Assembly: GCA_021736975.1 (NCBI GenBank) | Contig: JAIPET010000007.1 | Span: 1 to 57,212, forward strand | DNA from: Candidatus Woesearchaeota archaeon | GTDB lineage: Archaea > Nanobdellota > Nanobdellia > Woesearchaeales > 21-14-0-10-32-9 | Direction: 5' to 3' | DNA: 57,212 nt | Shown here: piece after piece, positions 20,322 to 52,076 of the stretch | Layout of the letters: each line of letters begins with the position of its first letter | Numbering within the stretch: position 1 is the first letter of the stretch | Program-made: the position numbers and the translations under genes | The notes under the pieces: model-generated | The model's database searches: none | Told to the model about the DNA's origin: nothing | The model's input: only the letters and a program-made list of their open reading frames with translations

Positions 20322-20471
20322 GGCTAATATGAAACCCTTCTTTTTTGTATTGCGAAGCACTATTTTTGACTCCGTCAAAAACAAAAAACCAATATTTGCA
20401 CCTATTTTGCTGTACAAAATGCAAATATTTCAAATTAACTTCAAGGCAATACTGAGGGTTTCATATTAGCC
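20322..20471. mobile_element. Element B copy 1: 150-bp MITE-like/structured palindromic element
   Basis: 17-bp TIR GGCTAATATGAAACCCT; flanking CCATAAAC at 20314-20321 and 20472-20479 (up to CCCCATAAAC); two internal hairpins. Confidence 0.85.
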
Positions 20472-20516
20472 CCATAAACAAAACCTTTATAAAGATAAAA
20501 AAGGATTTTATACAGA

Positions 20517-21101
20517 ATGGCAGCTTCAGCGTTCGGCGGCGCAATAGAATTTATGCAAAGAGTAGGTGTATTTGACACAGTCCTACCATTTCTACTAGTA
20601 TTTACATTAGTATTCGCATTCCTAGAAAAAACAAAAGTGCTTGGAACCGAACCATGGAGATCAGATATAGATCACAAATTCCACCAAGTAACAAGAAAAA
20701 ATATGAATGCAATGATCGCTTTTGTAATAGCATTCTTTGTTGTTGCAAGCAGTCAACTAGTAGCACTAATAAGCGAACTAACATCAAAAATAGTATTAAT
20801 AATGGTTTTAATATTAATGTTTTCAATGACAGTTGGCGTCATGTCAAGAGAAAACAAAGAAGGATTTGAATTACCAAAAGGATGGATAACACTATTCACA
20901 ATAATAATATTCATAGCAATAACCGCAATATTCTTAGATGCAATGGGCTGGTTAAATATAATATATGGATTCCTTGATAGTTTTTGGGGAAGCGAAGCAA
21001 CAGCATCAGTAATATTAATAGCAATAATAATTGGAATAATATTTTACATAACAAAAGACAATAAACCAAAAGAAGCAAAAAAAGAAAAAAAAGACGATTA
21101 A
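20517..21101 (+). CDS. multi-TM membrane protein (paralogue of next two)
   Basis: ORF; FDTVLPFLLVFTLVFAFLEKTKVLGTE shared with 21169 ORF. Confidence 0.75.
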   Translation: MAASAFGGAIEFMQRVGVFDTVLPFLLVFTLVFAFLEKTKVLGTEPWRSDIDHKFHQVTRKNMNAMIAFVIAFFVVASSQLVALISELTSKIVLIMVLILMFSMTVGVMSRENKEGFELPKGWITLFTIIIFIAITAIFLDAMGWLNIIYGFLDSFWGSEATASVILIAIIIGIIFYITKDNKPKEAKKEKKDD

Positions 21102-21168
21102 AAAAAAAATTAAAGATAAACAAAATATATAAATAAAACAAATAAAAAAATAAATAGGTGAAAAACAA

Positions 21169-21771
21169 ATGGCCTGGAACTTCAGCTCAATAATATATGG
21201 AACAAATTACGATTTACTAACAGATGCATTACTACCATTCGCATTAATATTTACGATAGTATACTCAGTATTACAAAAAACAAAAATATTAGGAACTGAA
21301 GATGATGGAAAAACACCAAAGAAAAATTTCAACGTAGTTCTATCATTAATAATGTCCATGGCAGTAGTAATACCACACATAACACGAGCATACCCAAATC
21401 AATGGGACGTAGTAACAATCATAAATAATTTCATACCAAACGTAGCACTAGTAGCAGTCGTAGTAATAATGCTTTTACTAATACTAGGATTATCAGGAAA
21501 ACCAGCAGATTTTACAAAAGAAGGACTAGGCGGCGGATTCACACTATTTGGAATAATAATAATAGGAATAATATTTTTAGCAGCAGCAGACGTATTTAAT
21601 AGAGCATTCTTTCCGCGATGGCTATACTTCATATACGATCAAAATTTTCAAGCATTAATAGTAACACTAATCGTATTCGGACTAATAATAGGATACATAA
21701 CAAAAGACGAGAAAAAAGATAAAGACAAAGGGGAAAACATCCTAAAAACATTAAACGCCTTTGGAAAATAA
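21169..21771 (+). CDS. multi-TM membrane protein
   Basis: LLTDALLPFALIFTIVYSVLQKTKILGTE, paralogous to 20517 ORF; ggtg Shine-Dalgarno upstream. Confidence 0.75.
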   Translation: MAWNFSSIIYGTNYDLLTDALLPFALIFTIVYSVLQKTKILGTEDDGKTPKKNFNVVLSLIMSMAVVIPHITRAYPNQWDVVTIINNFIPNVALVAVVVIMLLLILGLSGKPADFTKEGLGGGFTLFGIIIIGIIFLAAADVFNRAFFPRWLYFIYDQNFQALIVTLIVFGLIIGYITKDEKKDKDKGENILKTLNAFGK

Positions 21772-21781
21772 AAACTAAAAA

Positions 21782-22447
21782 ATGGCTACCTTCCTAAACA
21801 TAGGGATTCTTGGATACTTTAGCGTAATATTCGCTTTCTTACTAGTATTTGTACTTATGTACGGATTATTCTCATGGGTAAAACCATTTGGAGAAAAACA
21901 AGTAGGAATATACGCAATAATGGCACTTGCATTCGCAATACTAAGCGTGACAAATACAAACATCTTAAGAATGATATACTTCCTAACACCATGGTTCTTC
22001 ATCCTATTATTTATAGGATTCATAATCTTATTCACACTAATGCTATTTGGATGGGATATGAAAACAATAGCAGACAGAACAACAAAAACAAATTTCAAAA
22101 CATACGCAATAGTAATAGTAGTAGTAGTAATAGTTTTTGGAATAGGAAATGCATTCGGACAAGACACACTAAATGAAGGACAAGGAATAACAACAACAGA
22201 TAACAATCAAATACAAACAACAACCAACACAGAAACAATACCAACAGTAACAGACGTAGATCCGACAGCAATACCAGATCCGACAAACAGAAACCCGAAA
22301 TCAGGAACCCCCGAAGGTACAGCAACAGATGACTTTGGAACAAACACACTAAACACACTAGTAAACCCACAAGTACTAGGATTAATTCTAATAATGTTCA
22401 TAGGCGCATTCGCAATGTTCTTTTTAACAAAAACCAATATAGACTAA
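21782..22447 (+). CDS. multi-TM membrane protein with Thr/Asn-rich loop
   Basis: ORF in same operon; similar N-terminal TM pattern. Confidence 0.7.
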   Translation: MATFLNIGILGYFSVIFAFLLVFVLMYGLFSWVKPFGEKQVGIYAIMALAFAILSVTNTNILRMIYFLTPWFFILLFIGFIILFTLMLFGWDMKTIADRTTKTNFKTYAIVIVVVVIVFGIGNAFGQDTLNEGQGITTTDNNQIQTTTNTETIPTVTDVDPTAIPDPTNRNPKSGTPEGTATDDFGTNTLNTLVNPQVLGLILIMFIGAFAMFFLTKTNID

Positions 22448-22580
22448 ATGTTTAGCCCATTAATAACGAAATATGTTTCAAGCTTTACACTCAAGCATAT
22501 AAAATTTGATGAAGTTTTATGAATTAATATTAGAATCTCCTTAACAGTCGAAAAAAAATAAAAATAAAAAAATAAAAGAA

Positions 22581-23240
22581 TTATTTTTTCTTAGAAGAAC
22601 TTGGAGCGCCTTTCTTGAATTCTCTTGCAAGCTTTGAAAGTTCAGAAACATTCTCAGTAAAAACAGGAAGAACCTTACTAAAAACCTTTTCCATAGCCTT
22701 AACTTCTGCTCCAACATTAGTTATGTTTTTATCATAATTATCAATCTTACCAAGAATAGCATTATGAAGCTTATCAAATTCAGATTTTAAATCATTAAAC
22801 CTTTGATCCAATAAAGTAATCTTACCAGTCATATCATTCTTCCACTCAATAACCTTACTAATATCCTTCATCAAATCATTCCACTTCTCATCAATAATTG
22901 CTTCAACAAGTTCCTCAGTAGAAACATCACCATCATAACTAGAATTTCCAGGAGGCTGCATCATACCAGAATTAGACGGAGGCGGAACTCCTTGAGAAGA
23001 AAAACCATCATCTTTACCCATATTATTCTCCATTTGAGGATAAGGCGCACCAGAATCAAAATTCCCTTCATTAGCCATATCTGCTTGATTTAAAGCATCA
23101 AAAATATCACTAGAAGAAAAACCATCTCTTTGTAACGTTTGAATAATTTGATTATTATCCAAGCCTTGAGCACGCATTGTTTTAACTTTATCAACAGGTA
23201 ATCCCTGGTTCATTCCCGGATTTGCACCAAAAATAGGCAT
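22581..23240 (-). CDS. coiled-coil protein (possible archaellum/pilus accessory-like)
   Basis: EELVEAIIDEKWNDLMKDISKVIEWKNDMTGKITLLDQRFNDLKSEFDKL helical region next to secretion ATPase. Confidence 0.55.
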   Translation of the reverse strand: MPIFGANPGMNQGLPVDKVKTMRAQGLDNNQIIQTLQRDGFSSSDIFDALNQADMANEGNFDSGAPYPQMENNMGKDDGFSSQGVPPPSNSGMMQPPGNSSYDGDVSTEELVEAIIDEKWNDLMKDISKVIEWKNDMTGKITLLDQRFNDLKSEFDKLHNAILGKIDNYDKNITNVGAEVKAMEKVFSKVLPVFTENVSELSKLAREFKKGAPSSSKKK

Positions 23241-23304
23241 ATCTTTTCACCTCTCACTATCATACTAAATTAATACCTTTAAAAACTTTACTCTAAACAG
23301 TAAC

Positions 23305-23757
23305 TTATTCATCTTGTTCATCTCGTTCATTTTCTTCAATCAAATCGTCAACTTCTTTCCTCGTAACAAATTGCATAGGATCCCAAAGATCCAAATATTT
23401 CTCTAAAACCTTAAAATCTTTTTGTTTAACAGCATCAACAATTTCCAACCTCATCAAATCAATTTGCTCACTTAACTCTTGAACAACCATCTTAGTTTGA
23501 ATCAAATCATCACCAAGAATTCTCTTCTCCTTAAAAAAAGACCTTTGAGTATCAAGCAAAGCCTGATCAGTTAACTGAATTTTTTTCCTTAAATTATAAT
23601 AACGATCCTCTAAAATTCTCAAATTAGAAGAAATCTCTGAAAGCGTTTTATTAAGAGATTGAATTTCAACATTTTTAGAAGTAAACGGATTCTGTCCACT
23701 AAACCCAGGATTATTACCCTGATAAAAAGAACCACCAATATCCTTATTCTCCATCAA
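23305..23757 (-). CDS. coiled-coil hypothetical protein
   Basis: ORF, predicted helical content. Confidence 0.55.
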   Translation of the reverse strand: MMENKDIGGSFYQGNNPGFSGQNPFTSKNVEIQSLNKTLSEISSNLRILEDRYYNLRKKIQLTDQALLDTQRSFFKEKRILGDDLIQTKMVVQELSEQIDLMRLEIVDAVKQKDFKVLEKYLDLWDPMQFVTRKEVDDLIEENERDEQDE

Positions 23758-23897
23758 ACACCTCTTTTAAACAAATAATGAACTTCTAATACTTAAATCT
23801 TTTCTAAAAACACAAAAAATACGATACAAAACCAAAAACATTTATATAGTTACAACAAAGAAATACTAATGAAAAGACACAAAAAACGGGGCGAGAT

Positions 23898-26201
23898 ATG
23901 GAACCTAAAAAAAGAGGAAGAGGTTTCTTCAAAGACTACGATATAGAAAAAGAAGGTGCAGACAATGTACTATTAATAAATTACGAAAACATACCTAGGG
24001 TACCCTCTCTAGAAGACGATTCTTTATGTATGGCAAAAACAAATGAACTCATATTATCAAACCCAAACATAACAAAAATAGTCTTTGCACAAAAACACGA
24101 TTATGAATACGAATATGATCAAGTAAAATTACTCATAGAAATAGTAAGCGTGTACAAATCCCTAATAAAAAATAAAGAACTATTCACATATCAAGCATTA
24201 AATGAATTATTAGGAGAAGATGCAAAATTTAATCTAACAAGAAGATATAATGAAACTCACAATTTAATCTTTAACCAATTATTAAGAGACCCAATAGGAA
24301 CATACATAGAAATAACAAGAACACTAAGAAAAGAAAAAATAGAATTAGATAAAGAATTTGATGACAAATTTTATGCAGCAAGAAAAAATTACATAACACT
24401 TTTAGAATACGTAATGAAAGTTCTAGAAAACACAAATCTAATACAAATAGCGATGCCCTACACGGCAGGATACAAAATAGGAGAAAGAGACATATACAGA
24501 AAAATATTCACACCAAACATAAAACCAGATTTTATGTTTACCAAAATAATGGCATCATATCCAAAAGATGCAGAAGAAGTAATGAATTACAACATAGGAG
24601 AAACAGAAGTAATAATATTCAAAACCACAGATAACATCCAATATCTTTACCACGTAACACCACCAGAATTTAAACTCTCAGAAGAAAAATATGAAGTTTT
24701 AGATATGGCAAGAAAAATTCTATCAGAACACCAACCTGAAGAACAAGACTTTGTAAATCCACAAAGAATGAGAGAAATATTCTACAATGTAGGAACAGAC
24801 CTATTACAAGAATTATCAGAACATAAAAAATTAAGACTAACAGAAAAAGAACTAGAAGAACTCACACAAATACTTATAAGATACACAGTAGGATTTGGAT
24901 TAATAGAAATATTACTAGAAGACGAACATGTTCAAGACATAACAATAAATAGCCCGACAGGAGAAACACCAATATTTCTAGTTCATGGAAAATTTAACGA
25001 ATGCAGAACCAACATAATTCCAAGCATAAGCGATGCAGAAAGCTGGGCATCAAAACTAAGACTATTATCAGGAAGACCACTAGACGAAGCAAACCCAATA
25101 CTAGACACAGACATAGAAATACCAAACGTAGCAAAAGCAAGAGTAGGAGTTATATCACGCCCATTAAATCCTACAGGAATAGCATATGCATTCAGAAGAC
25201 ACAGAGATAAACCATGGACATTACCACTATTCATAAAAAACAAAATGATAACACCACTTGGCGCAGGACTAATAAGTTTCATAGTTGATGGAAATCGAAC
25301 AATGCTTGTTGCAGGAACAAGAAGCGCAGGAAAATCATCACTTCTTGGCGCTGTAATGGTAGAAATAATGAGAAAATATAGAATCATAACAATAGAAGAT
25401 ACACTAGAACTGCCAGGAGAACAACTAAGAAAACTAGAATATAACATTCAAAGCATGAAAGTAGCATCTGCACTAAGCAAAGGAACAAGCGAAGTAAGCG
25501 CAGATGAAGGAATAAGAACAACACTAAGACTGGGAGACTCAGCACTAATCGTGGGAGAAGTAAGAAGCACAGAAGCACAAGCACTCTACGAAGCAATGAG
25601 AGTCGGAGCTTTAGCAAACGTGGTAGCAGGAACAATTCACGGAGATAGCCCTTACGGAGTATATGATAGAGTAGTAAATGATCTAAAAGTTCCAAAAACA
25701 AGCTTTAAAGCAACAGACATAATAATTGTTGCTAACCCAATAAGAAGCGCTGACGGACTACACAAATGGAGAAGAGTAACACAAATAAGTGAAGTAAGAA
25801 AAGACTGGGAAGATGATCCAATGCTAGAAAAAGGATTCGTAGACCTAATGAGATACAACTCAAAAACAGACAAATTAGAACCAACAGACGAACTATTAAA
25901 TGGAGATTCTGAAATACTAAAAGCAATAGCAGGAAACGTAAAAGATTGGACAGGAAACTGGGATGCAGTATGGGATAACATACTACTAAGAGCAAAAACC
26001 AAAGAAGCATTATTAGAATTAAGTGAAAAAGAAAATGACCCTGAAATTCTAGAAGCACCATTCATAATATCTTCAAATGATCAATTCCACAGAATAAGTG
26101 ATAAAATAATAGAAGAAACAGGAACCCTAAATAGCAAAAAAATATTCATGGAATGGCACGAATGGGCAAAAACACAAATTAAACGAAAAAAAGCTAAATA
26201 A
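23898..26201 (+). CDS. type II/IV secretion system ATPase (TadA/VirB11/PilB-like)
   Basis: Walker A VAGTRSAGKSSLL, IITIEDTLELP Asp box, LIVGEVRSTEAQALYEAMRVGALANVVAGTIHGDS. Confidence 0.93.
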   Translation: MEPKKRGRGFFKDYDIEKEGADNVLLINYENIPRVPSLEDDSLCMAKTNELILSNPNITKIVFAQKHDYEYEYDQVKLLIEIVSVYKSLIKNKELFTYQALNELLGEDAKFNLTRRYNETHNLIFNQLLRDPIGTYIEITRTLRKEKIELDKEFDDKFYAARKNYITLLEYVMKVLENTNLIQIAMPYTAGYKIGERDIYRKIFTPNIKPDFMFTKIMASYPKDAEEVMNYNIGETEVIIFKTTDNIQYLYHVTPPEFKLSEEKYEVLDMARKILSEHQPEEQDFVNPQRMREIFYNVGTDLLQELSEHKKLRLTEKELEELTQILIRYTVGFGLIEILLEDEHVQDITINSPTGETPIFLVHGKFNECRTNIIPSISDAESWASKLRLLSGRPLDEANPILDTDIEIPNVAKARVGVISRPLNPTGIAYAFRRHRDKPWTLPLFIKNKMITPLGAGLISFIVDGNRTMLVAGTRSAGKSSLLGAVMVEIMRKYRIITIEDTLELPGEQLRKLEYNIQSMKVASALSKGTSEVSADEGIRTTLRLGDSALIVGEVRSTEAQALYEAMRVGALANVVAGTIHGDSPYGVYDRVVNDLKVPKTSFKATDIIIVANPIRSADGLHKWRRVTQISEVRKDWEDDPMLEKGFVDLMRYNSKTDKLEPTDELLNGDSEILKAIAGNVKDWTGNWDAVWDNILLRAKTKEALLELSEKENDPEILEAPFIISSNDQFHRISDKIIEETGTLNSKKIFMEWHEWAKTQIKRKKAK

Positions 26202-26202
26202 A

Positions 26203-28446
26203 ATGAATAGAAAAGATCTGGATTATATTGAATTCAAAAGAAAATACAAGAAAAAACTAGCAGGTGCTCTAGGCGATAAAATAGAAAATTCAAAACCAGT
26301 AACCACATCAGACTATAATACTTTTAAAGATACATTCATGCCAAAAAACTTATCATTTTATGAAAAAGGATGTGGGTTTGCAGAAAAAATAATACCTATG
26401 ACACCTGATAAAAAAAAAATACCAGATATACAAGAAGCAATAAAAATAAGCCACTTAAATATTAGTCCAACAGGAACTGCAAGTTTTGCAGCACTCACAT
26501 CACTTGCAATAATATTAATATCCATAATACTAGGATATTTAGTTGTATTCTCAGACAGTACAGGAACAACAGAAATAACATTTTTTGTATTCTCAGGATT
26601 AATTTTAGCACTAATAATGTTTTTACCACTATCAAAACTACCATTTATAATTGCAAATATCTGGCGAATGAAAGCAAGCAACCAAATGGTCCTTAGCATA
26701 TTTTACATCGTAACCTATATGAGACACACACCAAACCTAGAACTAGCAATAGATTTTGCAGCAGAACATCTAAACCCCCCTTTAAGTTTAGATTTTAAAA
26801 AAGTAATATGGGACATAGAAACAGGAAAATTTGATTCAGTAAACGAATCACTAGATAATTATTTAGAAACATGGAGAAGATACAATCCAGAATTTATAGA
26901 AAGCACACACCTTATACAATCATCACTTTACGAAACATCAGAAACAAGAAGACAAGAAGCCCTAGACAAAAGTTTATCAGTAATTTTAGATGAAACATTT
27001 GAAAAAATGTTACACTACACACACGACCTAAAAAGTCCAATTACAACACTACACATGCTCGGAGTAATACTACCAATATTAGGCCTAGTAATTTTACCAC
27101 TAGCAACAAGTTTTATACCAGAAGCAAGATGGTATCATTTATTTGTTATGTATAACATAGCACTACCCGTACTAGTATATTATATGGGACGAGAAATATT
27201 ATCAACAAGACCATCAGGATACGGAGGAATAGATCTAAGTAATTTAAGAGCAGAAGAAAAAAATGATAAAATAGTAATAAAATTAGATAAAAAGAAAGAT
27301 TCAAAAAATAAAATAGAATTAACACCGATGCTCGCAAGCGTATTAATATTCATAATATTATTCACAATAGGAATCCTACCATTATTAATCCACACAATAA
27401 ATCCAGGATACGATTTAGTACTAACGAACGAATTTCAAATATTAAACTATTATGATTTAGATGATGCATCCGAAGTATATCTAAGATTTCTAGACTACAG
27501 AACAGTAGATTTAGGTTCTGGAAAAAGCGCATTAATAGGCCCCTTCGGATTAGGAGCAAGCATATTAAGCCTCTTCATACCATTATCAATAGGCCTGAGC
27601 ATCGGACTATATAACAAATTAAAAACCACAAATTTAATGTCATTACAAGAAAGAACAAAAAAACTAGAACTAGAATTTGCATCTGCACTATTCCAACTAG
27701 GAAATAGATTAGCAGACGGAGTACCTGCAGAAATAGCATTCTCAAACGTAGCCCAAGTAATGAAAGGAACACAATCAGGAAGATTCTTTGAAGAAGTAAC
27801 AATAAATATAGTAAAACTAGGAATGGGAGTAGAAGAAGCAATATTTAATATAAAAAATGGAGCGCTAAAAAACTATCCCTCATCAATAGTAGAAAGCAGC
27901 ATGAAAGTATTTTTAGAAAGCAGTAAAAAAGGACCGATGATTGCAAGTCAAGCACTAATAACAGTAGCAGAATACATAAAATCAATGCACAGGGTTGATG
28001 AACGACTAAAAGATTTAATGTCAGACATCGTAGGAAGCATGAAATCACAAATAGCATTCTTAACGCCAGCAATATCAGGAATAGTAGTAGGAATAACTGG
28101 AATGATAACACAAATCATGGGAAGCCTCACACAAAAAATGGCGGATTTTAATACAGGAACATCAGGAGCACTAGCAGATTCATCATCACTATTTGCAATG
28201 CTAGGAGGCGGAGGCGTACCAACCTACTTTTTCCAAGCAATAGTAGGATTATACGTAGTACAAATAACACTAATTCTTTCAATAATGATAAATGGAATAC
28301 AAAACGGAGCAGACAAATTAAGTGAAAAAGACGAAATCGCAAAAAACATGCTAAAAGGAACGATACTATATGTTGCAATAGCAGGAATATGCGTTATAAC
28401 ATTTAGCATAATAGCAGCAAGCCTAATTGGAAAATTAAGTATTTAA
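26203..28446 (+). CDS. type II secretion system F-domain (TadC-like) membrane platform protein
   Basis: Follows ATPase; multi-TM with FASALFQLGNRLADGVPAEIAFSNVA and VAEYIKSMHRVDERLKDLMSDIVGSMKSQIAFLTPAISGIVVG. Confidence 0.85.
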   Translation: MNRKDLDYIEFKRKYKKKLAGALGDKIENSKPVTTSDYNTFKDTFMPKNLSFYEKGCGFAEKIIPMTPDKKKIPDIQEAIKISHLNISPTGTASFAALTSLAIILISIILGYLVVFSDSTGTTEITFFVFSGLILALIMFLPLSKLPFIIANIWRMKASNQMVLSIFYIVTYMRHTPNLELAIDFAAEHLNPPLSLDFKKVIWDIETGKFDSVNESLDNYLETWRRYNPEFIESTHLIQSSLYETSETRRQEALDKSLSVILDETFEKMLHYTHDLKSPITTLHMLGVILPILGLVILPLATSFIPEARWYHLFVMYNIALPVLVYYMGREILSTRPSGYGGIDLSNLRAEEKNDKIVIKLDKKKDSKNKIELTPMLASVLIFIILFTIGILPLLIHTINPGYDLVLTNEFQILNYYDLDDASEVYLRFLDYRTVDLGSGKSALIGPFGLGASILSLFIPLSIGLSIGLYNKLKTTNLMSLQERTKKLELEFASALFQLGNRLADGVPAEIAFSNVAQVMKGTQSGRFFEEVTINIVKLGMGVEEAIFNIKNGALKNYPSSIVESSMKVFLESSKKGPMIASQALITVAEYIKSMHRVDERLKDLMSDIVGSMKSQIAFLTPAISGIVVGITGMITQIMGSLTQKMADFNTGTSGALADSSSLFAMLGGGGVPTYFFQAIVGLYVVQITLILSIMINGIQNGADKLSEKDEIAKNMLKGTILYVAIAGICVITFSIIAASLIGKLSI

Positions 28447-28481
28447 AAAAGAATAAAAACAACAACACAATTCTAAACACA

Positions 28482-29003
28482 ATGCAAGAAGAAACAACAA
28501 AATACTATGATGGAATTGCATCTGGTTACAATAATCTTTATGGAGAAGAACAAAGAGAAAAATTCAAAATAATAAAAACAAAAATAAATCTAGAAAAAAA
28601 CCAAACACTTCTTGACATAGGATGTGGAAGCGGAATAAGCTCAGAATTCTTTGATTGCAACATCCAAGGAATAGACCCTTCTTCAGAACTAATAAAAATC
28701 GCCAAACAAAACCACCCGGAACACCAATGGATTGAAGGCAGCGGAGAAGAAATATCTGAAAAATACTCTGAAAAGAAATTTGATTTTATAATATGCATAT
28801 CATCAGCACACCACATAAAAAATATAAAAAAATTAATCAAAGACATAAAAAAACTCTCAAAACCAAACCAAAAAACAAAATACTGCTTCTCCCTTTTAAA
28901 AAATAGCCAAAGAAATGAAGAAATAATATCTGAAATAGAAAAAGAATTTAAAATAACAGAAAAAATACTAGGAAAAAAAGACATAATAATTTTCTTTTTA
29001 TAA
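28482..29003 (+). CDS. SAM-dependent methyltransferase
   Basis: LLDIGCGSGISSEFF motif I; FDFIICISSAHHIKN. Confidence 0.9.
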   Translation: MQEETTKYYDGIASGYNNLYGEEQREKFKIIKTKINLEKNQTLLDIGCGSGISSEFFDCNIQGIDPSSELIKIAKQNHPEHQWIEGSGEEISEKYSEKKFDFIICISSAHHIKNIKKLIKDIKKLSKPNQKTKYCFSLLKNSQRNEEIISEIEKEFKITEKILGKKDIIIFFL

Positions 29004-29104
29004 TACCATTTAATAATAAATACAGTAAAATTTATAAATACACGTATACTATTAAGTATATTAGAATATCAAAACATCTATTAAATAATTAAGGAAAGAA
29101 AAAA

Positions 29105-29884
29105 ATGAACTCAATAAACGATATACAGGACGAAAGAGTAAGACACTTAGCAACAACACTGAAACAATCAGGACTAGCAGCATCTGAAACTGAAGCAATA
29201 AGAATGGCGACAGCAATGTCACATACAAGCAATAAAGTGAATCAAACATTTGAAGAAAGAAAAGGAACAGCACCCACACTAATAAATATGCATAAAAGAG
29301 AATCACCATCACAAACCCAGGAAAAAGAGGCCCCTAAAAGGGAATTCCAAGAAAAACAAGATGCAAGAGTAGAAATACCAAGAACTGCAGAACAAATCGT
29401 GGCAAGTATGAGAGAAACAGAAACAATAAGGGCAGTACCAACTGCAGAAAATAATAACAGAAATCAATACATGCAACAAAACACAGAACTTGAACCTGAT
29501 TTATCAAATATGAGTTTAGCAGAAGCTTCAGGACAAACACCAAATCAAAATATTGAACAAAATCAAGAAACTCCAGAATTAAGTTTTCAAAACACAGAAC
29601 AAAAACCAATACAAAACGAAGCTCCGATAAGAGTTGAAGAAAAAGAAGATTACAAAATAGAATTCAAAGACGACGAAGAATTCATAGTTCAAGACGTAAC
29701 AAGAAGTCAAGAAACAACAAATAACGAGCAAAACATACAACAAACCCCTCAAAACGAACAACCACAACAAAATGATCAAAAACAAGGCTTTCAAACACCT
29801 GAGCGAAAACCAAAAAAAAACATATCAGAAATGGAAGAATCTCGTGTTGATTTAGGATCCGTCTTTAATTTTAACAAAAAATAA
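29105..29884 (+). CDS. low-complexity Gln/Glu-rich hypothetical protein
   Basis: ORF with disordered composition. Confidence 0.55.
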   Translation: MNSINDIQDERVRHLATTLKQSGLAASETEAIRMATAMSHTSNKVNQTFEERKGTAPTLINMHKRESPSQTQEKEAPKREFQEKQDARVEIPRTAEQIVASMRETETIRAVPTAENNNRNQYMQQNTELEPDLSNMSLAEASGQTPNQNIEQNQETPELSFQNTEQKPIQNEAPIRVEEKEDYKIEFKDDEEFIVQDVTRSQETTNNEQNIQQTPQNEQPQQNDQKQGFQTPERKPKKNISEMEESRVDLGSVFNFNKK

Positions 29885-29984
29885 AATACACTCTTATTTT
29901 TTATTTATCTAAATTACCTCATTAAATAGTTAAATCTACCAAAAAGTTTATAAATATTTATCCACTCTAGTGTGATAACAAAAG

Positions 29985-29998
29985 TTTTAGCGCTAAAA
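29985..29998. promoter_or_regulatory. 14-bp perfect palindrome TTTTAGCGCTAAAA in 5' leader, followed by Shine-Dalgarno GGAGGT
   Basis: Direct reading upstream of 30019 CDS. Confidence 0.5.
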
Positions 29999-36856: not shown

Positions 36857-38407
36857 TTACCACGAAAGTAAACCATGAGCTTTTTTATAATTATTATAAA
36901 CCATCCACATAGCAATTGTAGCACCCTTTAGTGCTTTCTTAGGATCTCCTTTAGATTTAGAGCCCCCAGAACTTTTTTTACTAAATAATCCTGAAGGAAT
37001 CATTAATGAAAAAATATCTCCAAAACCCTTAGCGACATCCACAAATGGATCAAAAACAGTACCGCCAGATCCAATTGGTTTAAAAGTTTCTTTTTGACCT
37101 TTCTTAGGTTTAACTTCTTCCTCAATAGTGCCTTCTGCTTCTTTAATATATTGATCAAGATCACTGCCAAGCATTTCCATAGCTGCTTTAAGTTGATCAT
37201 CAACTAAAGACAATAATTCCAAATCCTCATAATCCCTCATTTTCTTATACATCTTAATCTGATCATCAGTCCAAGCATAAGCCCTTAAAGTCATAATACC
37301 TCTCCCAACGTGAATCGGACCTTGATAATTTTCTTGCCTATATTGCATCGTAGGACGAGTATTAAACTCATAACTCATCAAAACAACAGAATTCATATTA
37401 GTTTTAGGCAAAGGCTTATACGCAATATTTTCAATTTCAATATTACTAGATTCAAAACTTGAAACAAGCTCAGGACTATCTAATTTTTCTTCATTCATAG
37501 TTAATCTCTTAATATGTCTAAGATAAGGCTTAACCCAACCAATATAAGTTTTAATTACAAGATAATGTTGCCTTAAATACTTTATTTGAAATTTTCTTCT
37601 AGCTTTTAATTCAATTTCTGTCTTTTCTTTCCAAACAATAAATTGATACATTTTTCTTTTTAAAACAGCTTTAACATTTTTATTAACGGATAAAGAATCC
37701 ACCATACCATCAATCTTATCAGTACTATAAATCGTAGTATTAAAAAATAAATCAGGCAAAACAGAATAACCAACTTGATTTGCTAAATGATAAATACTAC
37801 CAGGCTGAACTTGACCACCTTTATTTTCAGCAAAATCTGCAAAAAAACCTTTAAGAGTTGCATCAGCACTCTTAGTTTTTTTCCATTCATCATAAGGCTG
37901 AAGTCTTTCATCAATATTTCTTAATTCTCTAACTATTTGAAACAAAGTTTTAACAAGCTCAGAAATTCCTCTTAAAAAACCAGATGCTCTATCTTCTTGA
38001 ATACTTAACCTGTATTGTGACTGACCAAAAAAAGCACTGTTTTCAGAAGCAGAAAAAATATCAGTAACCTTAAGCATAAAAGGAAAACCAGCATCTTGTC
38101 TGATATGCCCAATAGACCAATAATACATTTCCTCCATAGACAAATTAAATGCTTCATGAACTAATTTAAGTCTCCAACCAGGTTTTGGAAATCTAGTCGA
38201 ATAATATTGATTATTCCAAGAAAGATTTGCTTCTTCATCAATTTCTTGTTCAGCATGAGCTTCATAATAATTATCAGGATCCTTTTCACTCTTAGGATTA
38301 GGCACATAATAACCTTTTTTCTCATCAAATTTATAATATTGCCCACCTTTATCATTAATAAATCCATACTTTACAAGCAATTGTGCATCCGTAAGCGTTT
38401 TTTTCAT
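36857..38407 (-). CDS. hypothetical protein, same operon as TIM-barrel protein
   Basis: Long ORF, co-oriented with close spacing. Confidence 0.6.
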   Translation of the reverse strand: MKKTLTDAQLLVKYGFINDKGGQYYKFDEKKGYYVPNPKSEKDPDNYYEAHAEQEIDEEANLSWNNQYYSTRFPKPGWRLKLVHEAFNLSMEEMYYWSIGHIRQDAGFPFMLKVTDIFSASENSAFFGQSQYRLSIQEDRASGFLRGISELVKTLFQIVRELRNIDERLQPYDEWKKTKSADATLKGFFADFAENKGGQVQPGSIYHLANQVGYSVLPDLFFNTTIYSTDKIDGMVDSLSVNKNVKAVLKRKMYQFIVWKEKTEIELKARRKFQIKYLRQHYLVIKTYIGWVKPYLRHIKRLTMNEEKLDSPELVSSFESSNIEIENIAYKPLPKTNMNSVVLMSYEFNTRPTMQYRQENYQGPIHVGRGIMTLRAYAWTDDQIKMYKKMRDYEDLELLSLVDDQLKAAMEMLGSDLDQYIKEAEGTIEEEVKPKKGQKETFKPIGSGGTVFDPFVDVAKGFGDIFSLMIPSGLFSKKSSGGSKSKGDPKKALKGATIAMWMVYNNYKKAHGLLSW

Positions 38408-38474
38408 AAAAATCCCCTTTTTATATAAACAGTAAGAAAATCGATTTCATACTATATAAACTTTTTGAAGAATA

Positions 38475-38597
38475 GGTCTTGTCCAGAAAGGTATGGAAAT
38501 GTATACTGGAGCACGGCACATCCTATGCATTCTCTTCAAGAATGCATGTGCCTCAATGGGCGCCAGTATACAAAATGCTGTTATTTTGGACAAGACC
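38475..38597. mobile_element. Element A: 123-bp MITE-like element with perfect 8-bp target duplication
   Basis: TIR GGTCTTGTCCA...TGGACAAGACC, inner GTATACTGG...CCAGTATAC, core GGCACAT..GCATTC-tcttcaa-GAATGCATGTGCC; GAAGAATA at 38467-38474 and 38598-38605. Confidence 0.88.
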
Positions 38598-38606
38598 GAA
38601 GAATAA

Positions 38607-38756
38607 GGCTAATATGAAACCCTTCTTTTTTTGTATTAGGAATTACTATTTTTAACTCTGTAAAAAACAAAAAACCAATATTTGCACCTATTTGCTGTAC
38701 AAAATGTAACTATTTCAAATTAACTTCAAAGCAATACCAAGGGTTTCATATTACCC
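38607..38756. mobile_element. Element B copy 2: 150-bp, same orientation as copy 1
   Basis: GGCTAATATGAAACCCTT...AAGGGTTTCATATTACCC; near-identical to 20322-20471 over its length; flanks gaagaataa/aaaaaataa (7/9). Confidence 0.82.
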
Positions 38757-43191: not shown

Positions 43192-43201
43192 AATTAAAAA
43201 A

Positions 43202-45154: not shown

Positions 45155-45156
45155 AA

Positions 45157-45609
45157 ATGAAACCAAAAAAAGCACAAACAAGCATTGAATTTGCAATATT
45201 AGTAGCCTTTGCAATGATGCTATTAGTAGTATTATTAAGCGTATTTCAAGAAAATGTAGCAACAATACAAAAAGATCAAGAATGGACACGAGCACAACAA
45301 GTATATGATATAATTTTCACAGAAATATACTTAGCACAATCAACATACACTAATTATACAAGAACTTTTGAAATACCAGGAAACATCCAAGGATCCGATA
45401 TAACAATCGACTGTATAAATGATAGAGATATAATAATAAATTATAATGAAAAAAAATTCGTTTTCTTCTTAAATAGAACAATACCAGGATGCGAAGATAA
45501 TCTAAATATAGGAATAGTAACAATAAAAAAAATTCCTTGGTCAAATGATCCAAGCGGAAATTTAATAGATGAATGCATAGTATTTGGAGAAAACACTTTA
45601 TGCGGGTAA
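45157..45609 (+). CDS. class III signal peptide (pilin-like) protein
   Basis: KPKKAQTSIEFAILVAFAMMLLVVLL. Confidence 0.8.
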   Translation: MKPKKAQTSIEFAILVAFAMMLLVVLLSVFQENVATIQKDQEWTRAQQVYDIIFTEIYLAQSTYTNYTRTFEIPGNIQGSDITIDCINDRDIIINYNEKKFVFFLNRTIPGCEDNLNIGIVTIKKIPWSNDPSGNLIDECIVFGENTLCG

Positions 45610-45651
45610 TTAAACAAAAGATTTATATATTAATAATTTAGTTTTCTTTTC

Positions 45652-46284
45652 ATGTTAAAAGGAATAAAGGCAGTATTTGGAAAATTACTAAAAAGGATGT
45701 TCAAAAAGAAAAAGCAAGTAAAGCTAGGACTATACGGGCCTCCAAACGGCGGAAAAACAACACTAGCGAACAAAATTTGTCAAGATTGGCTAGGAGAAGA
45801 CATGGGTTCTGTTTCTAATATAGCACACGAAACAAGAGAAGTATCAATAAAAGAAAGCATAACAATAAAATCAGGAAATAAAGAACTATCATTTAACTTA
45901 GTAGATACGCCAGGAATCGCAACAAAAATAGATTATGAAGACTTCTTAAAATCAGGAATGAAAGCAAAAGAAGCAAAACAAAGAGCAAAAGAAGCAACAA
46001 AAGGCGTAATAGATTCAATAAAATGGCTAGATGACATGGACACCGTTATCGTAGTACTAGATGCAACAATAGACCCATATACACAAGTAAACATAACAAT
46101 CATAGGAAATTTACAAGCAAGAAAAATACCTGTACTAATAGTAGGAAATAAAATAGATAAGAAAAAAGCAAATCTAAAAAAACTAGAAGCCGCATTCCCA
46201 CAATATAAAGTAATAGGAATAAGTGCTAAATTTGGAAAAAACACAGATGAATTTTACAAAGAATTATTTAACTTGGTGGACTAA
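45652..46284 (+). CDS. Era-like GTP-binding protein
   Basis: GPPNGGKTTL (G1), DTPG (G3), NKID (G4). Confidence 0.9.
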   Translation: MLKGIKAVFGKLLKRMFKKKKQVKLGLYGPPNGGKTTLANKICQDWLGEDMGSVSNIAHETREVSIKESITIKSGNKELSFNLVDTPGIATKIDYEDFLKSGMKAKEAKQRAKEATKGVIDSIKWLDDMDTVIVVLDATIDPYTQVNITIIGNLQARKIPVLIVGNKIDKKKANLKKLEAAFPQYKVIGISAKFGKNTDEFYKELFNLVD

Positions 46285-46286
46285 AA

Positions 46287-46694
46287 ATGCTAACACTACA
46301 ATTCATACCATACCATGAAATGGAAAATCTGGATTCAAAACAAAGAATAAGCAAACTCTTAAAATCCGTAAAATCAAACAAAATAGTATTAATGGAAGGA
46401 AGACTAAAAAGCAGTGAAGAAGCAGAACTTATTAGAAAAACAATGGAAGAAATATCTCCTGAATTCAAAGGAATAGAATTATCCGTTGTAAATACACCAA
46501 ATACTGATGCAAAAATTCTAAAAAAGTTCAAATCAGTACTAGTAAATATGTTACTTGGAGATAGACACGGCCTAACAATAATAGGACCTGCAAAAATAAT
46601 AAAAGAAATAAAACAAGATCCTGATAAAATCCAATTACTAACAGAAGAAATACAAGAAAAAACAAAAAGTAAAGGAAAAAAAAGATCTAAATAA
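46287..46694 (+). CDS. DUF2073-like protein
   Basis: Adjacent to Era-like GTPase; TLQFIPYHEMENLDSKQRISKLLKSVKSNKIVLMEGRL. Confidence 0.65.
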   Translation: MLTLQFIPYHEMENLDSKQRISKLLKSVKSNKIVLMEGRLKSSEEAELIRKTMEEISPEFKGIELSVVNTPNTDAKILKKFKSVLVNMLLGDRHGLTIIGPAKIIKEIKQDPDKIQLLTEEIQEKTKSKGKKRSK

Positions 46695-46779
46695 ATATTT
46701 AGTTAAAAAACCAAACAAATACTAAAGAACACAAAACTTTATATTCTCTTATAATATTTTTAATAATAGGTGATTAAAT

Positions 46780-47157
46780 ATTCCACATCAATGCGTAAAA
46801 TGCGGTGAACTACACGGAGATGCAAGCTCAGCAATACTAGAAGGCTGTACTAAATGCGGATCCAAACTATTCTTTTATGTAAAACAAGAAGCACTAGCAA
46901 AAGCAAAAGAAAGAACACTAGAACTAACAGACGACGAAAAAGACCAAATGGAAAAAGATGTCTACGACATAATAGGCAACGAAATAGATAAAGACATACC
47001 TGTAGTATTAGATATAGAAAGTATAAACGTATTAAAACCAGGAAAATACGAACTAGATCTAGTAAATCTATTCAAAGCAAAACAACCATTAATATACAAA
47101 CTAGACGACGGAAAATACGTAGTAGATGTTATAGAAACATTCAAAAAATTAAGATAA
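46780..47157 (+). CDS. archaeal zinc-ribbon protein (DUF2072-like), apparent AUU start
   Basis: Frame reads TGA TTA AAT ATT CCA CAT CAA TGC...: (M)PHQCVKCGELHGDASSAILEGCTKCGSKLFFYV; Shine-Dalgarno GGTGAT 5 nt upstream of ATT; ORF track starts only at 46948. Confidence 0.75.
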   Translation: MPHQCVKCGELHGDASSAILEGCTKCGSKLFFYVKQEALAKAKERTLELTDDEKDQMEKDVYDIIGNEIDKDIPVVLDIESINVLKPGKYELDLVNLFKAKQPLIYKLDDGKYVVDVIETFKKLR

Positions 47158-47217
47158 TAATCACTTTTAAGTAATAAAAAACATAAAATTTAAAAAGAGC
47201 ATGTAATTCTTAATATA

Positions 47218-47757
47218 ATGATTCCCGAAAACATAAATGCATACTTATCCCTAATGAACCAATATAGTAAAAAAACAATAGGCAATCAAGAGATAAAAAA
47301 CGCATTAAATAAATTAACAGAAAATATAGCAAAAGATAACGACCCAATACTATTTCACAATGCAGACGAAAACATATTATATGTAATGAACAATTATCAC
47401 CAAGGAACAAAAATAATAGGAATAACAAAAAACCAAGAAAAAAACAAACGACTACAAGAATTAAATTCAAATATAGAACTAATAACTGAAAATGAATTTT
47501 TAAAACTTGACAACATAAAAATATCAGGCGCATACATAGGATTCGGAAACGAAATAAACGTAAAAATACTACAAAAATACAAAGAAATAATGGAAACCAA
47601 CACATACATAACAATATTCAAATTACCACAAGAAAAAAACTTTAAAATAGATATATTAAAAAAATCAGAACTTCAAAGACCAAAAAATGTCCAATACTCA
47701 TTTACAAAAGAAGCAAACAACATAGACTTTAATTTCTTAGTAACACCTGAAAATTAA
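47218..47757 (+). CDS. hypothetical protein
   Basis: ORF between zinc-ribbon gene and trm1. Confidence 0.55.
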   Translation: MIPENINAYLSLMNQYSKKTIGNQEIKNALNKLTENIAKDNDPILFHNADENILYVMNNYHQGTKIIGITKNQEKNKRLQELNSNIELITENEFLKLDNIKISGAYIGFGNEINVKILQKYKEIMETNTYITIFKLPQEKNFKIDILKKSELQRPKNVQYSFTKEANNIDFNFLVTPEN

Positions 47758-47805
47758 CTTTCTAAAAAAATAAACATTTTTAATTAATAAGACATTTCTT
47801 AAACA

Positions 47806-48900
47806 ATGCAAAAAATAAAAGAAGCAGAAGTAAAAATAATAGCAGAAAAAAAAGAAGTAGTAGATAAAAAAATGCCTGTATTTTACAATCCATTAATGAA
47901 ACTAAATAGAGATATAAGCATATTAATAATAAGAAATTATCTAGAAAAAAAAGAAGAACTAAAAGAACCACTCGTAAAAATAGCCGATCCTCTTGCAGGA
48001 AGCGGAATAAGAACACTAAGAATACTAAAAGAAACACAAACAAACAAAATAAAAGAAATATGTGTGAATGATAAAAAACAAAATTATAAAGAATATTTAG
48101 AAAAAAACCTAGAAATAAACGAACTAACAAAAGAACAAAAAAATAAAATACAAATATTCAACAAAGACGCAAACATATTCTTACTAGAAAATAAACCCCT
48201 TGATTACATAGACATAGACCCATTTGGCACACCAAACCCATTTTTAGATGCAGCAACAAAATCAATAAGAACCAAAGGAATTCTCGCAATAACCGCAACA
48301 GACACATCAGCACTATGCGGAAGCTACCCAAAAGCATGCGAAAGAAAATACTGGGCCAAACCACTAAGAAACGAACTAATGCACGAAATAGGGCTGCGAA
48401 TACTAATAAGAAAAATACAGTTAATAGGAATAAATAATGAAGTAGCATTAATACCAATACTATCCTATGCGTATGATCATTATATGAGAATATTTTTTAG
48501 AGCAGACAAAGGAAAAACGAATATTGATAACATCCTCAACCAGCATGCAGCGTTCAGTGTTCAGAACGCAGAGTATGGTCCAATATGGACTGGCGAACTA
48601 AACGACATAAAAATCATAACAGAAATTAAAAAAGATTTAGAAAATGAAACAGTCTCAAAAAACATAGAAAAAAGAACAATAAAACTAATAGAACAACTCT
48701 ACGAAGAAACAAAAATACCTGGAATCGGCTTTTATGACTTGCACACAGAAGCCAAAGGAAAAACAGGATCCATCCCCAAATTTGAAACAATCATAAACAA
48801 ACTAAAAGAAAAAGGATACAAAGCATCAAGAACACACTTTAGAGAAACAGCAATAAAAACAAATGCAGAAAAAGAAGACATTCAAAAACTTTTAGAATAA
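47806..48900 (+). CDS. trm1: tRNA (guanine(26)-N(2)/N(2))-dimethyltransferase Trm1
   Basis: VFYNPLMKLNRDISI, DPLAGSGIRTLR, YIDIDPFGTPNPFLDAA, TATDTSALCGSYPKAC. Confidence 0.95.
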   Translation: MQKIKEAEVKIIAEKKEVVDKKMPVFYNPLMKLNRDISILIIRNYLEKKEELKEPLVKIADPLAGSGIRTLRILKETQTNKIKEICVNDKKQNYKEYLEKNLEINELTKEQKNKIQIFNKDANIFLLENKPLDYIDIDPFGTPNPFLDAATKSIRTKGILAITATDTSALCGSYPKACERKYWAKPLRNELMHEIGLRILIRKIQLIGINNEVALIPILSYAYDHYMRIFFRADKGKTNIDNILNQHAAFSVQNAEYGPIWTGELNDIKIITEIKKDLENETVSKNIEKRTIKLIEQLYEETKIPGIGFYDLHTEAKGKTGSIPKFETIINKLKEKGYKASRTHFRETAIKTNAEKEDIQKLLE

Positions 48901-48952
48901 TTTTTGGACATTTATAAAAATAAATGAATAAAAAAATAATGGACAAATTAAA

Positions 48953-49438
48953 ATGGAAGATTTCACAATAGAACGAATAGAAGAAACAAGAAAAACATTT
49001 ATTGAAAACAATTTTTACTTTGTAAAAAAAGAAATAGGAAACAGATACATAGAATATTATGAATTACCTCAAGACCTAAACAAAGATCTGCCCAATTTTG
49101 TTTGCAGAGTCACAAATAACGAAACTAAAAAATACATTCTAGGCGTATCATTAAATATTCCCACAAAAATAAGACCATATTTTGCTTTGGAAGAATACAT
49201 TGAATTTATAGAAATTGGAATGGATAAAGAAAACAGAGTATTAGAAGCAGAAAAAGAAGTTCTAAAAATAATACCTGAAAAAATAAAAAAAGAATACATA
49301 CGATTAAAAATAGACTTATTTGAAACAGAATTAAAACTATACAAAAAATATCCTAACGACTATCTCCTCGGAGAAGACGGCGTAAAAGAGTTTGAGAAAG
49401 CAACAAAATATTTAAAAAACGAATTAAAAACATACTAG
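48953..49438 (+). CDS. hypothetical protein
   Basis: ORF; one of few genes ending in TAG. Confidence 0.55.
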   Translation: MEDFTIERIEETRKTFIENNFYFVKKEIGNRYIEYYELPQDLNKDLPNFVCRVTNNETKKYILGVSLNIPTKIRPYFALEEYIEFIEIGMDKENRVLEAEKEVLKIIPEKIKKEYIRLKIDLFETELKLYKKYPNDYLLGEDGVKEFEKATKYLKNELKTY

Positions 49439-49450
49439 AAGAAATAATTT

Positions 49451-49966
49451 TCACTCTATAAGTTTAAGATAATTATTCAAAACATATTTCACATTACTTT
49501 GAGCATAATCATTAAGAGTATCTAAATTTGTAACTTCAACATTTTTCCAATAAGGCCAATTATTTTTCGCTAAAATATCAATTGAACCCATATGTATTTC
49601 AGGATCAAAACTAATACTACCTGTAACTTTAGTATTCCAAATACCATTCATTCCTTTGTCAATAAATGTTACGCCTTTTGTTTTCTCGCCCATATTTCTT
49701 AGCCACAATGTAAGTATGTTACTGTATTGGCCTTGAAAAGGAATATTTTTTTCATACACATATCTAAATGCGACAGATGGATAATTACCAGTCATGTTAA
49801 AACCACAAGCATATTCACTGCTTTGCGTATCAACATCTATCGTTCCCATTGAAACATTATTATGTTCAATTTTTTCATATTTGTTATCATCACCAATACA
49901 TCCCGATAAATTATACATAATCAACAAAGGAACAAAAATATTTTTTACTGAATCTAATACCTTCAT
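49451..49966 (-). CDS. putative lipoprotein
   Basis: N-terminal MYNLSGCIGDDN lipobox-like. Confidence 0.55.
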   Translation of the reverse strand: MKVLDSVKNIFVPLLIMYNLSGCIGDDNKYEKIEHNNVSMGTIDVDTQSSEYACGFNMTGNYPSVAFRYVYEKNIPFQGQYSNILTLWLRNMGEKTKGVTFIDKGMNGIWNTKVTGSISFDPEIHMGSIDILAKNNWPYWKNVEVTNLDTLNDYAQSNVKYVLNNYLKLIE

Positions 49967-50069
49967 TTTATCGACCTCTTTTTAATTTTGTTATTATTTA
50001 GTAGTGCAAATAAATATATAAAATTATCTCTTAAAAAATACAACAAAAACAATAAAAAAATCAATATTA

Positions 50070-51089
50070 TTGGAAAAATTAAAAATTAATAGTAATATTT
50101 ATATATTTAATAGGGATAAATATTATGTGAAACTAGATATATTAAACAAAAAAATACTTTACGAACTAGAAAAAGACTCATCGCAACCAGCTTCAAAAAT
50201 AGCAAAAAAACTAAAACAATCAAAAGAAGTAATATTATATAGAATACATAAATTAGAAGAAGAAAAAATTTTACTAGGATGCAGCGCAATAGTAGACATG
50301 GCAAAACTAAACTATTTCACATTTAGAATCTATATAAAATGGCAAAACATGACAGAAGAAGAAAAACAAAAATTTTATGATCAAATAAAAACAAATGAAA
50401 ACGTATGGACAACAACAGTTATGCACGGAGCATGGGACTTCGCATTCTTCATAGGTGTAAAAGTAGACGAATACGTAACAAAATTTCATACAATATGGAA
50501 CAACATACAAATAAAATACAAACACAAAATTGCCGCAACAAAAATTGCGCTCTACGCACCAGTACACAATTTTAACAAACAATTTTTTATCGAAACAAAA
50601 GAAATACCAATCGAGCGAATATATGGCGCCGGAACACCAACAAAATTCGATGAATTAGACGAAAACATAATAAAAGAATACTCTTCAAACGTCAGACAAC
50701 CACTAAACAAAATAGCTGAAAAACTAAGAACAACAACTGAAACAGTCAGACAAAGAATAAAAAAACTAGAAAAAAACAACGTAATCGTAGGATACAAAAT
50801 AAACTTAAACCTACCAGAAATGGGCTACCAAGGATACAGAGTAGATTTCTCACTAAACTCAATAGAAAGAAACAAAGAACTATTCGAATATCTAAAACAA
50901 CACAAATACTTTTATCAAATAAACAAATCAATAGGCGGAGCAGACTTTGAAACAGAAATAGTAGTAGAAAGCCTTGATCACCTCTTGAAAATACTTGAAG
51001 AAATAATGAAAAAATTTAAAGATGTCATGAGAAACTACGACTATATGGGCTACTCAGAGTTTCCGAGTCTTTCGATTGTTCCTGATTAA
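50070..51089 (+). CDS. tandem Lrp/AsnC-family transcriptional regulator (two HTH-RAM units)
   Basis: LDILNKKILYELEKDSSQPASKIAKKLKQSKEVILYRIHKLEEEKILLG and LDENIIKEYSSNVRQPLNKIAEKLRTTTETVRQRIKKLEKNNVIVGYK. Confidence 0.8.
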   Translation: MEKLKINSNIYIFNRDKYYVKLDILNKKILYELEKDSSQPASKIAKKLKQSKEVILYRIHKLEEEKILLGCSAIVDMAKLNYFTFRIYIKWQNMTEEEKQKFYDQIKTNENVWTTTVMHGAWDFAFFIGVKVDEYVTKFHTIWNNIQIKYKHKIAATKIALYAPVHNFNKQFFIETKEIPIERIYGAGTPTKFDELDENIIKEYSSNVRQPLNKIAEKLRTTTETVRQRIKKLEKNNVIVGYKINLNLPEMGYQGYRVDFSLNSIERNKELFEYLKQHKYFYQINKSIGGADFETEIVVESLDHLLKILEEIMKKFKDVMRNYDYMGYSEFPSLSIVPD

Positions 51090-51218
51090 AACTAAAATGA
51101 AAATATTAAAACAAAATCTCCGGAAATTCATAAAAAAACATTTGAATAATTCAAAAAACAATTTGTTGAAACAGTAATATTAGATACAAAAAACCTTAAA
51201 ATATACTCTAAATTAATA

Positions 51219-51380
51219 ATGAGGGCAGACACTTTGCTTGAAATATTCAAAGAAGAAAAATGGAAAAGAAGCCACTACACATACAATACAATTCCTCAGG
51301 CAAACAAAGAACCTGCAAAAGACTCGGTGAACAATGCAAAAATGTTCTTAAAACATATAAAAAACTTGATAGAAAACTAA
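51219..51380 (+). pseudogene. probable remnant of a helical (HEPN-like) protein C-terminus
   Basis: MRADTLLEIFKEEKWKRSHYTYNTIPQANKEPAKDSVNNAKMFLKHIKNLIEN; same frame extends upstream through FKKQFVETVILDTKNLKIYSKLIM to a TAA. Confidence 0.4.
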
Positions 51381-51406
51381 CAATAAATTAAAAAACAAAA
51401 AAAGAA

Positions 51407-51688
51407 TTATCCCAATGCTCTTCTTACATCAACAATTTCTGCAGAATTAACTTCTTCTAATTCCTCTAATTTTTCAGCTACAGGATCAGGACTTCCAAGA
51501 TTTTCATCCATAACAAAAATCATACTTATTGCTTTTAACCCAAATGCTACAGGAATTATTTCTGTTTTTGTTTCAACTTCTTCACCTGTAAAATCATATA
51601 TTACTTTTTTTACCTTTTTTTCCAATTCTTCAATACTTGTTTCTGGAGAATCAGGCATAACTTTAACTGTTGCAATTGCTTTAGCCAT
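51407..51688 (-). CDS. ef1b: translation elongation factor 1-beta (aEF1B)
   Basis: MAKAIATVKVMPDSPETSIEELEKKV...VAFGLKAISMIFVMDE; start set at MAKA. Confidence 0.9.
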   Translation of the reverse strand: MAKAIATVKVMPDSPETSIEELEKKVKKVIYDFTGEEVETKTEIIPVAFGLKAISMIFVMDENLGSPDPVAEKLEELEEVNSAEIVDVRRALG

Positions 51689-51704
51689 TATAGAACACCT
51701 CTTT

Positions 51705-51878
51705 CTAATTTGGTCCTGTAAAGCCACATTTTGGACATGTGTACTTACCAACTATTTGTCTTGCATGCTTACTTCTAACTATTTCATAGTCGCTGCATTT
51801 AGGACATTTAAAAGTGACTGAACCTTTATCATTTGTTATTCTAGCATTTGTTGCTGAACATTTTTTTACTTCTTCCAT
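51705..51878 (-). CDS. small two-CxxC zinc-ribbon RNA-binding-type protein (HVO_2753-like)
   Basis: Own translation: MEEVKKCSATNARITNDKGSVTFKCPKCSDYEIVRSKHARQIVGKYTCPKCGFTGPN, stop TAG; missed by ORF track (57 aa). Confidence 0.85.
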   Translation of the reverse strand: MEEVKKCSATNARITNDKGSVTFKCPKCSDYEIVRSKHARQIVGKYTCPKCGFTGPN

Positions 51879-51923
51879 ACATACTTGGAAAGATAATCCA
51901 TTTATAAAGATTTTGGGAATTTT

Positions 51924-52076
51924 GGCTAATATGAAATTCTTTGTATTGTCTTGAAGTAAATTTGAAATATTTACATTTTACGTTAGTAAAATAGCTGTAA
52001 ATATTGATTATTTCTTTTTGACAGAGTCAAAAATATATCTTCACAATACAAAAAATTAAAGGGTTTCATATTAGCA
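51924..52076. mobile_element. Element B copy 3: ~153-bp, inverted relative to copies 1 and 2
   Basis: GGCTAATATGAAATTC...TTTCATATTAGCA; GGGAATTTT at 51915-51923 and 52077-52085; reverse complement aligns to copy 1 over full length. Confidence 0.85.

Follow-up and report, generated by a model that had tools for sequence, protein, structure and literature searches.

Three structured elements of about 150 bp lie in the 57,212-nt contig JAIPET010000007.1 (hereafter the window), one whole contig of the 1.31-Mb, 47-contig draft genome of a Candidatus Woesearchaeota archaeon (GCA_021736975.1, the host genome), and the paired differences between them raise the question of what preserves several separate stems within a short mobile element. 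We consider it probable (about 0.68) that these miniature inverted-repeat transposable elements (MITEs) are mobilised by an IS5-family transposase and targeted ahead of TATA boxes, and that their interior is a folded DNA cassette selected while the element is mobile. The copies and their target site duplications are as follows.

20322..20471, + strand: copy 1, structured MITE of subfamily A, with perfect 16-base terminal inverted repeats GGCTAATATGAAACCC
20314..20321, + strand: target site duplication of copy 1, left, CCATAAAC
20472..20479, + strand: target site duplication of copy 1, right, CCATAAAC
38607..38756, + strand: copy 2, structured MITE of subfamily A, stems partly decayed
51924..52076, - strand: copy 3, structured MITE of subfamily B, with GTATTGT/ACAATAC and AATATTTACA/TGTAAATATT
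51915..51923, - strand: target site duplication of copy 3, promoter side, AAAATTCCC
52077..52085, - strand: target site duplication of copy 3, far side, AAAATTCCC

The initial annotation had described these three copies with their stems in a common order, and both the coordinates and the order were confirmed. Its view of the element as mobile is borne out by the target duplications, by at least 43 copies in the host genome and by ends matching a full-length insertion sequence (IS), and the partial stem loss that it noted in copy 2 is real and a usual feature of resident copies. Promoter targeting at a fixed distance and the exchange of cores between terminal repeats go beyond what that annotation described.

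The MITE family and its cognate insertion sequence

The 16-base end occurs six times in the window against 0.43 expected (shuffle maximum 3). The host genome yielded 41 BLAST matches and at least 43 alignable copies, a lower bound that the true number may exceed, as copies were gathered by searches. All of these are ~150 bp long with GGCTAATATGAAACCC ends, inverted repeats of 16–19 bp and a non-coding interior, and they form three subfamilies: A (copy 1-like), B (copy 3-like) and C (one very divergent copy, L052). The target duplication is 8 bp at copy 1, 9 bp in most clean copies and 8–9 bp in most of the intact ones. No curated Rfam model matched the element. Seven copies share 98–100% identity with copy 1 or its like, and host contigs C19, C32, C38 and C44 terminate inside such near-identical copies, which points to recent activity and to assembly breaks at these sites. 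Autonomous copies could be hidden in the resulting gaps of the host assembly (G000).

A relative from the same order carries a complete 1,019-bp IS that shares these ends and has a 9-bp duplication AAATAGAAG (L043/L062). Its transposase contains a DDE_Tnp_1 domain (PF01609) and passes the curated cut-off of the IS5-family model NF033579 of NCBIfam (145 bits, cut-off 140), a likeness to IS5 that extends to the 9-bp duplication; homologues of this transposase were found in 93 of the 288 genomes of the order. Comparison by eye of the MITE with one full IS showed that only the ends match. Because their ends match full-length IS5-family insertion sequences in related genomes, the elements are MITEs: short, non-coding sequences with terminal inverted repeats and a duplicated target, dispersed in many copies and sharing their ends with an autonomous IS. 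The full-length IS that the initial annotation had proposed to look for was thus found in relatives and not in the host genome. The IS6 family, prompted as a candidate by the first 8-bp duplication, was rejected, as the host has no PF13610 match and the matching ends belong to an IS of IS5 type.

A near-perfect hairpin (for example ATTCTGATattcATCAGAAT) adjoins the right terminal repeat of the IS5 elements, within the end of the transposase gene (L043:2480-2505; related ISs L093–L131), and its outer pairs vary in matched fashion between ISs.

Promoter spacing of the insertions

Outward from the element end, most copies present the 8–9 bp duplication, a 6-bp A-rich segment and then a TTTAWAWA box. 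Of 82 MITE flanks, 21 have the box beginning at offset 16 and 11 at offset 15, with 0–5 at the other offsets, and the highest column in 20,000 circular shifts was 13 against the observed 21. The flanks of related ISs give the same picture, with the box at exactly 16 in 26 of 54 (permutation maximum 10). When an insertion was scored by a box 15–17 nt from the element end on either side (control windows 0–8), boxes accompanied 32 of the 43 host MITEs that carry the interior of copies 1–3 (core 1; control windows 3–8), all 12 MITEs with the same end in other genomes, and 14 of 15 copies of a second MITE family. IS ends, viewed from one side only, had a box in 27 of 54, the half explained if just one side of each IS faces a promoter. 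More distant IS5 elements (~30% identity) whose two ends could be placed likewise carry boxes mostly at 15–17.

The segment preceding the box fits the transcription factor B recognition element (BRE), with R at -6 and A at -4 and -3. Eleven copies have the box 30–32 nt ahead of an ATG, the distance expected for leaderless genes, and the boxes are therefore taken as real promoters. These promoters pre-existed the insertions: the copy 1 promoter is present in the sister genome G001 with the same TATA box and no element (L177), and that of the copy 3 operon is kept without the element in G001, G003 and G004 (L183–L185). Insertion occurs at a fixed promoter distance, the 8–9 bp duplication lying ~6 bp ahead of the archaeal BRE/TATA. 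The promoters, genes and neighbouring element at the three copies are listed below.

20480..20493, + strand: host promoter at copy 1, BRE-like AAAACC (20480-20485) and TATA box TTTATAAA (20486-20493), with the ATG at 20517, 31 nt on
20517..21101, + strand: gene downstream of copy 1, 194 aa, no Pfam match, G001 homologue 69% identical
38453..38466, - strand: host promoter for gene 36857-38407 (-), TTTATATA plus a 6-bp spacer, adjoining the second MITE
38475..38597, + strand: second, unrelated structured MITE (core 2), GTATACTGG-AGCACGGC...GGGCGC-CAGTATAC with ends GGTCTTGTCC/GGACAAGACC, between copy 2 and the promoter of gene 36857-38407 (-)
38598..38606, + strand: duplicated target GAAGAATAA, common to the stacked second MITE and copy 2
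51901..51914, - strand: host promoter of the copy 3 operon, AAAATC and TATA box TTTATAAA, 30 nt to the ATG
51705..51878, - strand: zinc-ribbon-like protein, 57 aa, first gene of the operon downstream of copy 3
51407-51751, - strand: aEF-1beta, in the same operon as the zinc-ribbon-like protein, downstream of copy 3

Five core-1 copies (L009, L016, which is copy 2, L030, L035 and L037) have no TATA box of their own and abut a second MITE that has one. In such stacked pairs the second MITE sits between the core-1 copy and the promoter. These stacks represent repeated insertion at one promoter; given the fixed spacing, the newest element would lie nearest to it.

The MITEs would be moved in trans by an IS5-family DDE transposase, which would insert them so that the 8–9 bp duplication ends ~6 bp upstream of the TATA box, directly upstream of a BRE/TATA bound by transcription factor B (TFB) and the TATA-binding protein (TBP) (for archaeal TBP, TFB and BRE, see PMC7289017). 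Most likely the strand-transfer complex docks on a fully or partly assembled promoter complex, which would both fix the spacing and spare coding sequence. Archaeal TFB and TBP are homologous to the relevant factors of Ty3 targeting.

Two systems appear to work most nearly in this way. Ty3 integrates at TFIIIB, within a narrow window set by a TBP-containing promoter complex (PMC8632968); it is a retrotransposon of Pol III genes whose docking has been seen by cryo-EM, whereas docking in the present case is an inference. The TnGBS, ISLre2 and ISKra4 elements also combine a DDE transposase with a set insertion distance, 15–17 bp upstream of the -35 box of sigma-A promoters, and insert in either orientation where their two ends are almost the same (PMC3942029). 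Those prokaryotic Mutator-like elements act at bacterial sigma-A promoters, unlike the archaeal BRE/TATA and IS5-family transposase found here; judged by their best transposase match, which is IS5, the present elements are not p-MULT members. The archaeal analogue offered in the same work is only the AT-rich preference of ISH6, put forward as a possibility (PMC3942029). While DDE targeting upstream of bacterial sigma-A promoters and promoter-directed integration of yeast Ty elements are already known, the open-access literature (subscription papers were not covered) gave no report of TATA-spaced insertion for IS5 or in archaea. A base-level archaeal case would tie transposon targeting to TBP/TFB machinery common to eukaryotes and, if true, would provide a prokaryotic counterpart of Ty3–TFIIIB targeting that is testable in a purified system. 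Each insertion would also flag a real promoter in uncultured archaea with no need for expression data.

Compensatory change and the folded interior

The paired substitutions described in the initial annotation are real. Among 14 core sequences both sides change in 15 of the 34 pairs of the fold, where shuffling gives 5.1 ± 1.5 and sliding the partners no more than 8; among 47 sequences they do so in 29 of 34 pairs against 16.6 ± 2.0 shuffled (161 cells against 41.8). The helix AATATTTGCA/TGCAAATATT, for example, becomes AAAAGACACA/TGTGTCTTTT in subfamily C and is of GCAAAACACA/TGTGTTTTGC type in the sister genome.

Preservation of the stems by compensatory change, as the initial annotation had read them, also exceeds a branch-matched null in which the substitutions of each branch were reassigned to columns drawn at random among those sharing the parental base. 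Two caveats are that ancestral states were reconstructed by parsimony, using a FastTree tree, and that A2 had been fitted to the model. On internal branches, pair-keeping double changes number 18 (2.4 ± 1.5 expected) and pair-breaking changes 26 (72 expected). Branches leading to other genomes and to subfamily C behave similarly (15 against 2.4 and 11 against 42). On deep branches there are 33 double Watson–Crick changes where 3.9 are expected. Branches to individual host copies, here termed resident copies, hold about half of all inferred substitutions, with 5 pair-keeping doubles against 3.8 and 65 pair-breaking changes against 87. As the branch classes differ in this way, the fold is maintained in the propagating lineage and largely relaxed after insertion, resident copies decaying almost neutrally.

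The initial annotation had left the functional form as folded RNA or single-stranded DNA. Intact elements have 32–34 of 34 pairs in Watson–Crick form and 0–2 G-U pairs. Single changes on deep branches occur at 0.26 of expectation towards G-U, 0.58 towards A-C and 0.20 towards other mismatches, where G-U was assessed on the given strand and the value for A-C leaves room for weak tolerance on the other strand. Because G-U should be tolerated on the strand of a functional RNA, constraint at the DNA level is favoured over the RNA level, and the single-stranded DNA or DNA half of the proposal fits better than the RNA half.

The interior would accordingly be pictured as a DNA cassette of several perfect Watson–Crick hairpins beneath a clamp stem, kept intact by compensatory change in the transposing lineage and free to decay in each resident copy. 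Folded DNA may raise the chance of mobilisation, for instance by pairing the ends or by presenting a hairpin during replication or transposition, and the cassette would neither act as RNA nor serve the host at each site. ERIC is a prokaryotic MITE of a comparable kind. Correia and QMITE elements are likewise short, AT-rich, non-coding and foldable, with terminal inverted repeats and target duplications; no fixed promoter distance is described for them in the text consulted (PMC10969869), whereas the present elements combine compensatory change in their interiors with varied ends. Intergenic repeats of Borrelia plasmids, for which a possible MITE relation has been suggested, keep their stems by base-pair changes, but are short stem-loops with neither a cognate transposase nor promoter spacing and have been read as RNA (PMC2674063).

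Strong compensatory change, together with unpaired motifs conserved across genomes (GACTCCGTC, CAAGGC and AGCACGGC...GGGCGC), would also be expected if the core were a functional non-coding RNA or mRNA element. We regard this as improbable given that G-U is about as rare as A-C in intact elements (0–2 among 34 pairs), that the elements lie upstream of the promoter in either orientation and hence outside the adjacent transcript, and that Rfam gave no match. The conserved unpaired motifs speak against a history devoid of selection, in which hairpin DNA is perfected by template switching or arm-to-arm conversion. Arms that are nearly perfectly Watson–Crick and free of G-U suit such correction, and correction limited to the transposition step could still operate. 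Resident copies, with about half of the substitutions, have no excess of double changes (5 against 3.8), and this correction model is likewise improbable. Gene conversion from palindromes of the terminal repeats, considered in the initial annotation, is disfavoured on the same ground and also because the pairs are internal. Were each copy instead a terminator, insulator or regulatory site retained by the host, fixed placement at promoters and the slight shortage of broken pairs among resident copies would follow. The specificity of the IS itself accounts for that placement, both orientations relative to the promoter occur, and many copies are visibly decayed (copy 2, L033, L040 and L054), which makes host benefit very improbable. 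More serious, if still unlikely, is a variant of the targeting mechanism in which the transposase itself reads BRE-like A-rich plus TATA DNA with no transcription factors. The sharp motif of the flanks (R at -6 and A at -4/-3, followed by TTTAWAWA) agrees with this; that the motif equals the promoter's own, that the target duplication lacks a strong motif and that the spacing shifts by a base or two argue the other way, none of them decisively.

Several results weigh against mobilised, promoter-targeted MITEs with a fold-selected DNA interior. Reading of an A-rich-plus-TATA motif by the transposase alone would yield identical spacing. The host draft genome has no such transposase by protein search or by PF01609, so that the enzyme has either been lost or lies in an assembly gap, and current mobilisation is inferred from the near-identical copies at contig ends. 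A symmetric G-test resembling that of R-scape, evaluated against a tree-based null, gave significance at E<0.05 for only 5 of 34 pairs, and a G-test across all pairs found none; the G-test is weaker than the complementarity-specific branch test. Broken pairs are also mildly fewer than expected in resident copies (65 against 87), which is compatible with some constraint in place.

Cores carried on different ends

A core-1 covariance model built without the ends was searched against the 288 genomes of the order. Outside the host, core 1 occurred only in the sister genome G001 (four copies), with ends GGCTCTGTCCTAAAT and GGTGTGTCCCAA, and in G160 from another family (seven matches, best E 4.8e-13), with ends GGCTTTGTCC/GGCTTCGTCC; the host also bears core-1 elements with GGCTCTAGCCGG ends. 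Core 2 gave 19 pattern matches in the host and is represented by relatives in G254, G071 and G277; it consists of AGCACGGC...GGGCGC under a GTAT..ATAC clamp and has at least four end types over three genomes: GGCTCTGGCC or GGTCTTGTCC in the host, GGCTAATATGAAACCC and GGCGCTGTCC in G254, and a GGCTCTGTAGAAACC-type end in G071. The same core is thus carried on different ends.

Host core-1 and core-2 elements of one end type share their outer arms up to the clamp stem, which suggests that cores swap ends by exchange within that stem. The cassette is independent of any one set of ends, new ends presumably being gained by recombination in the clamp stem. That folded cassettes occur on differing terminal repeats suggests a further level of parasitism within MITEs, one undescribed in the literature found. 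The broader proposition, that widespread archaeal IS5-type transposons dock on TBP/TFB-bound promoters and carry exchangeable DNA cassettes that act as independent elements, moving between the ends of different transposons and under selection for their fold while mobile, is tentative, with the odds slightly against it.

Two further structural variants were noted. A third structured MITE interior (GCCAnnnGGCCAGTGAGC...GCGAACGAG) occurs with GGCTAATATGAAACCC ends in G245, G273 and G237 (L141, L142, L143 and L150), and three of the G160 core-1 elements (L167, L169 and L171) contain an extra hairpin-containing insertion of ~50 bp in the third stem.

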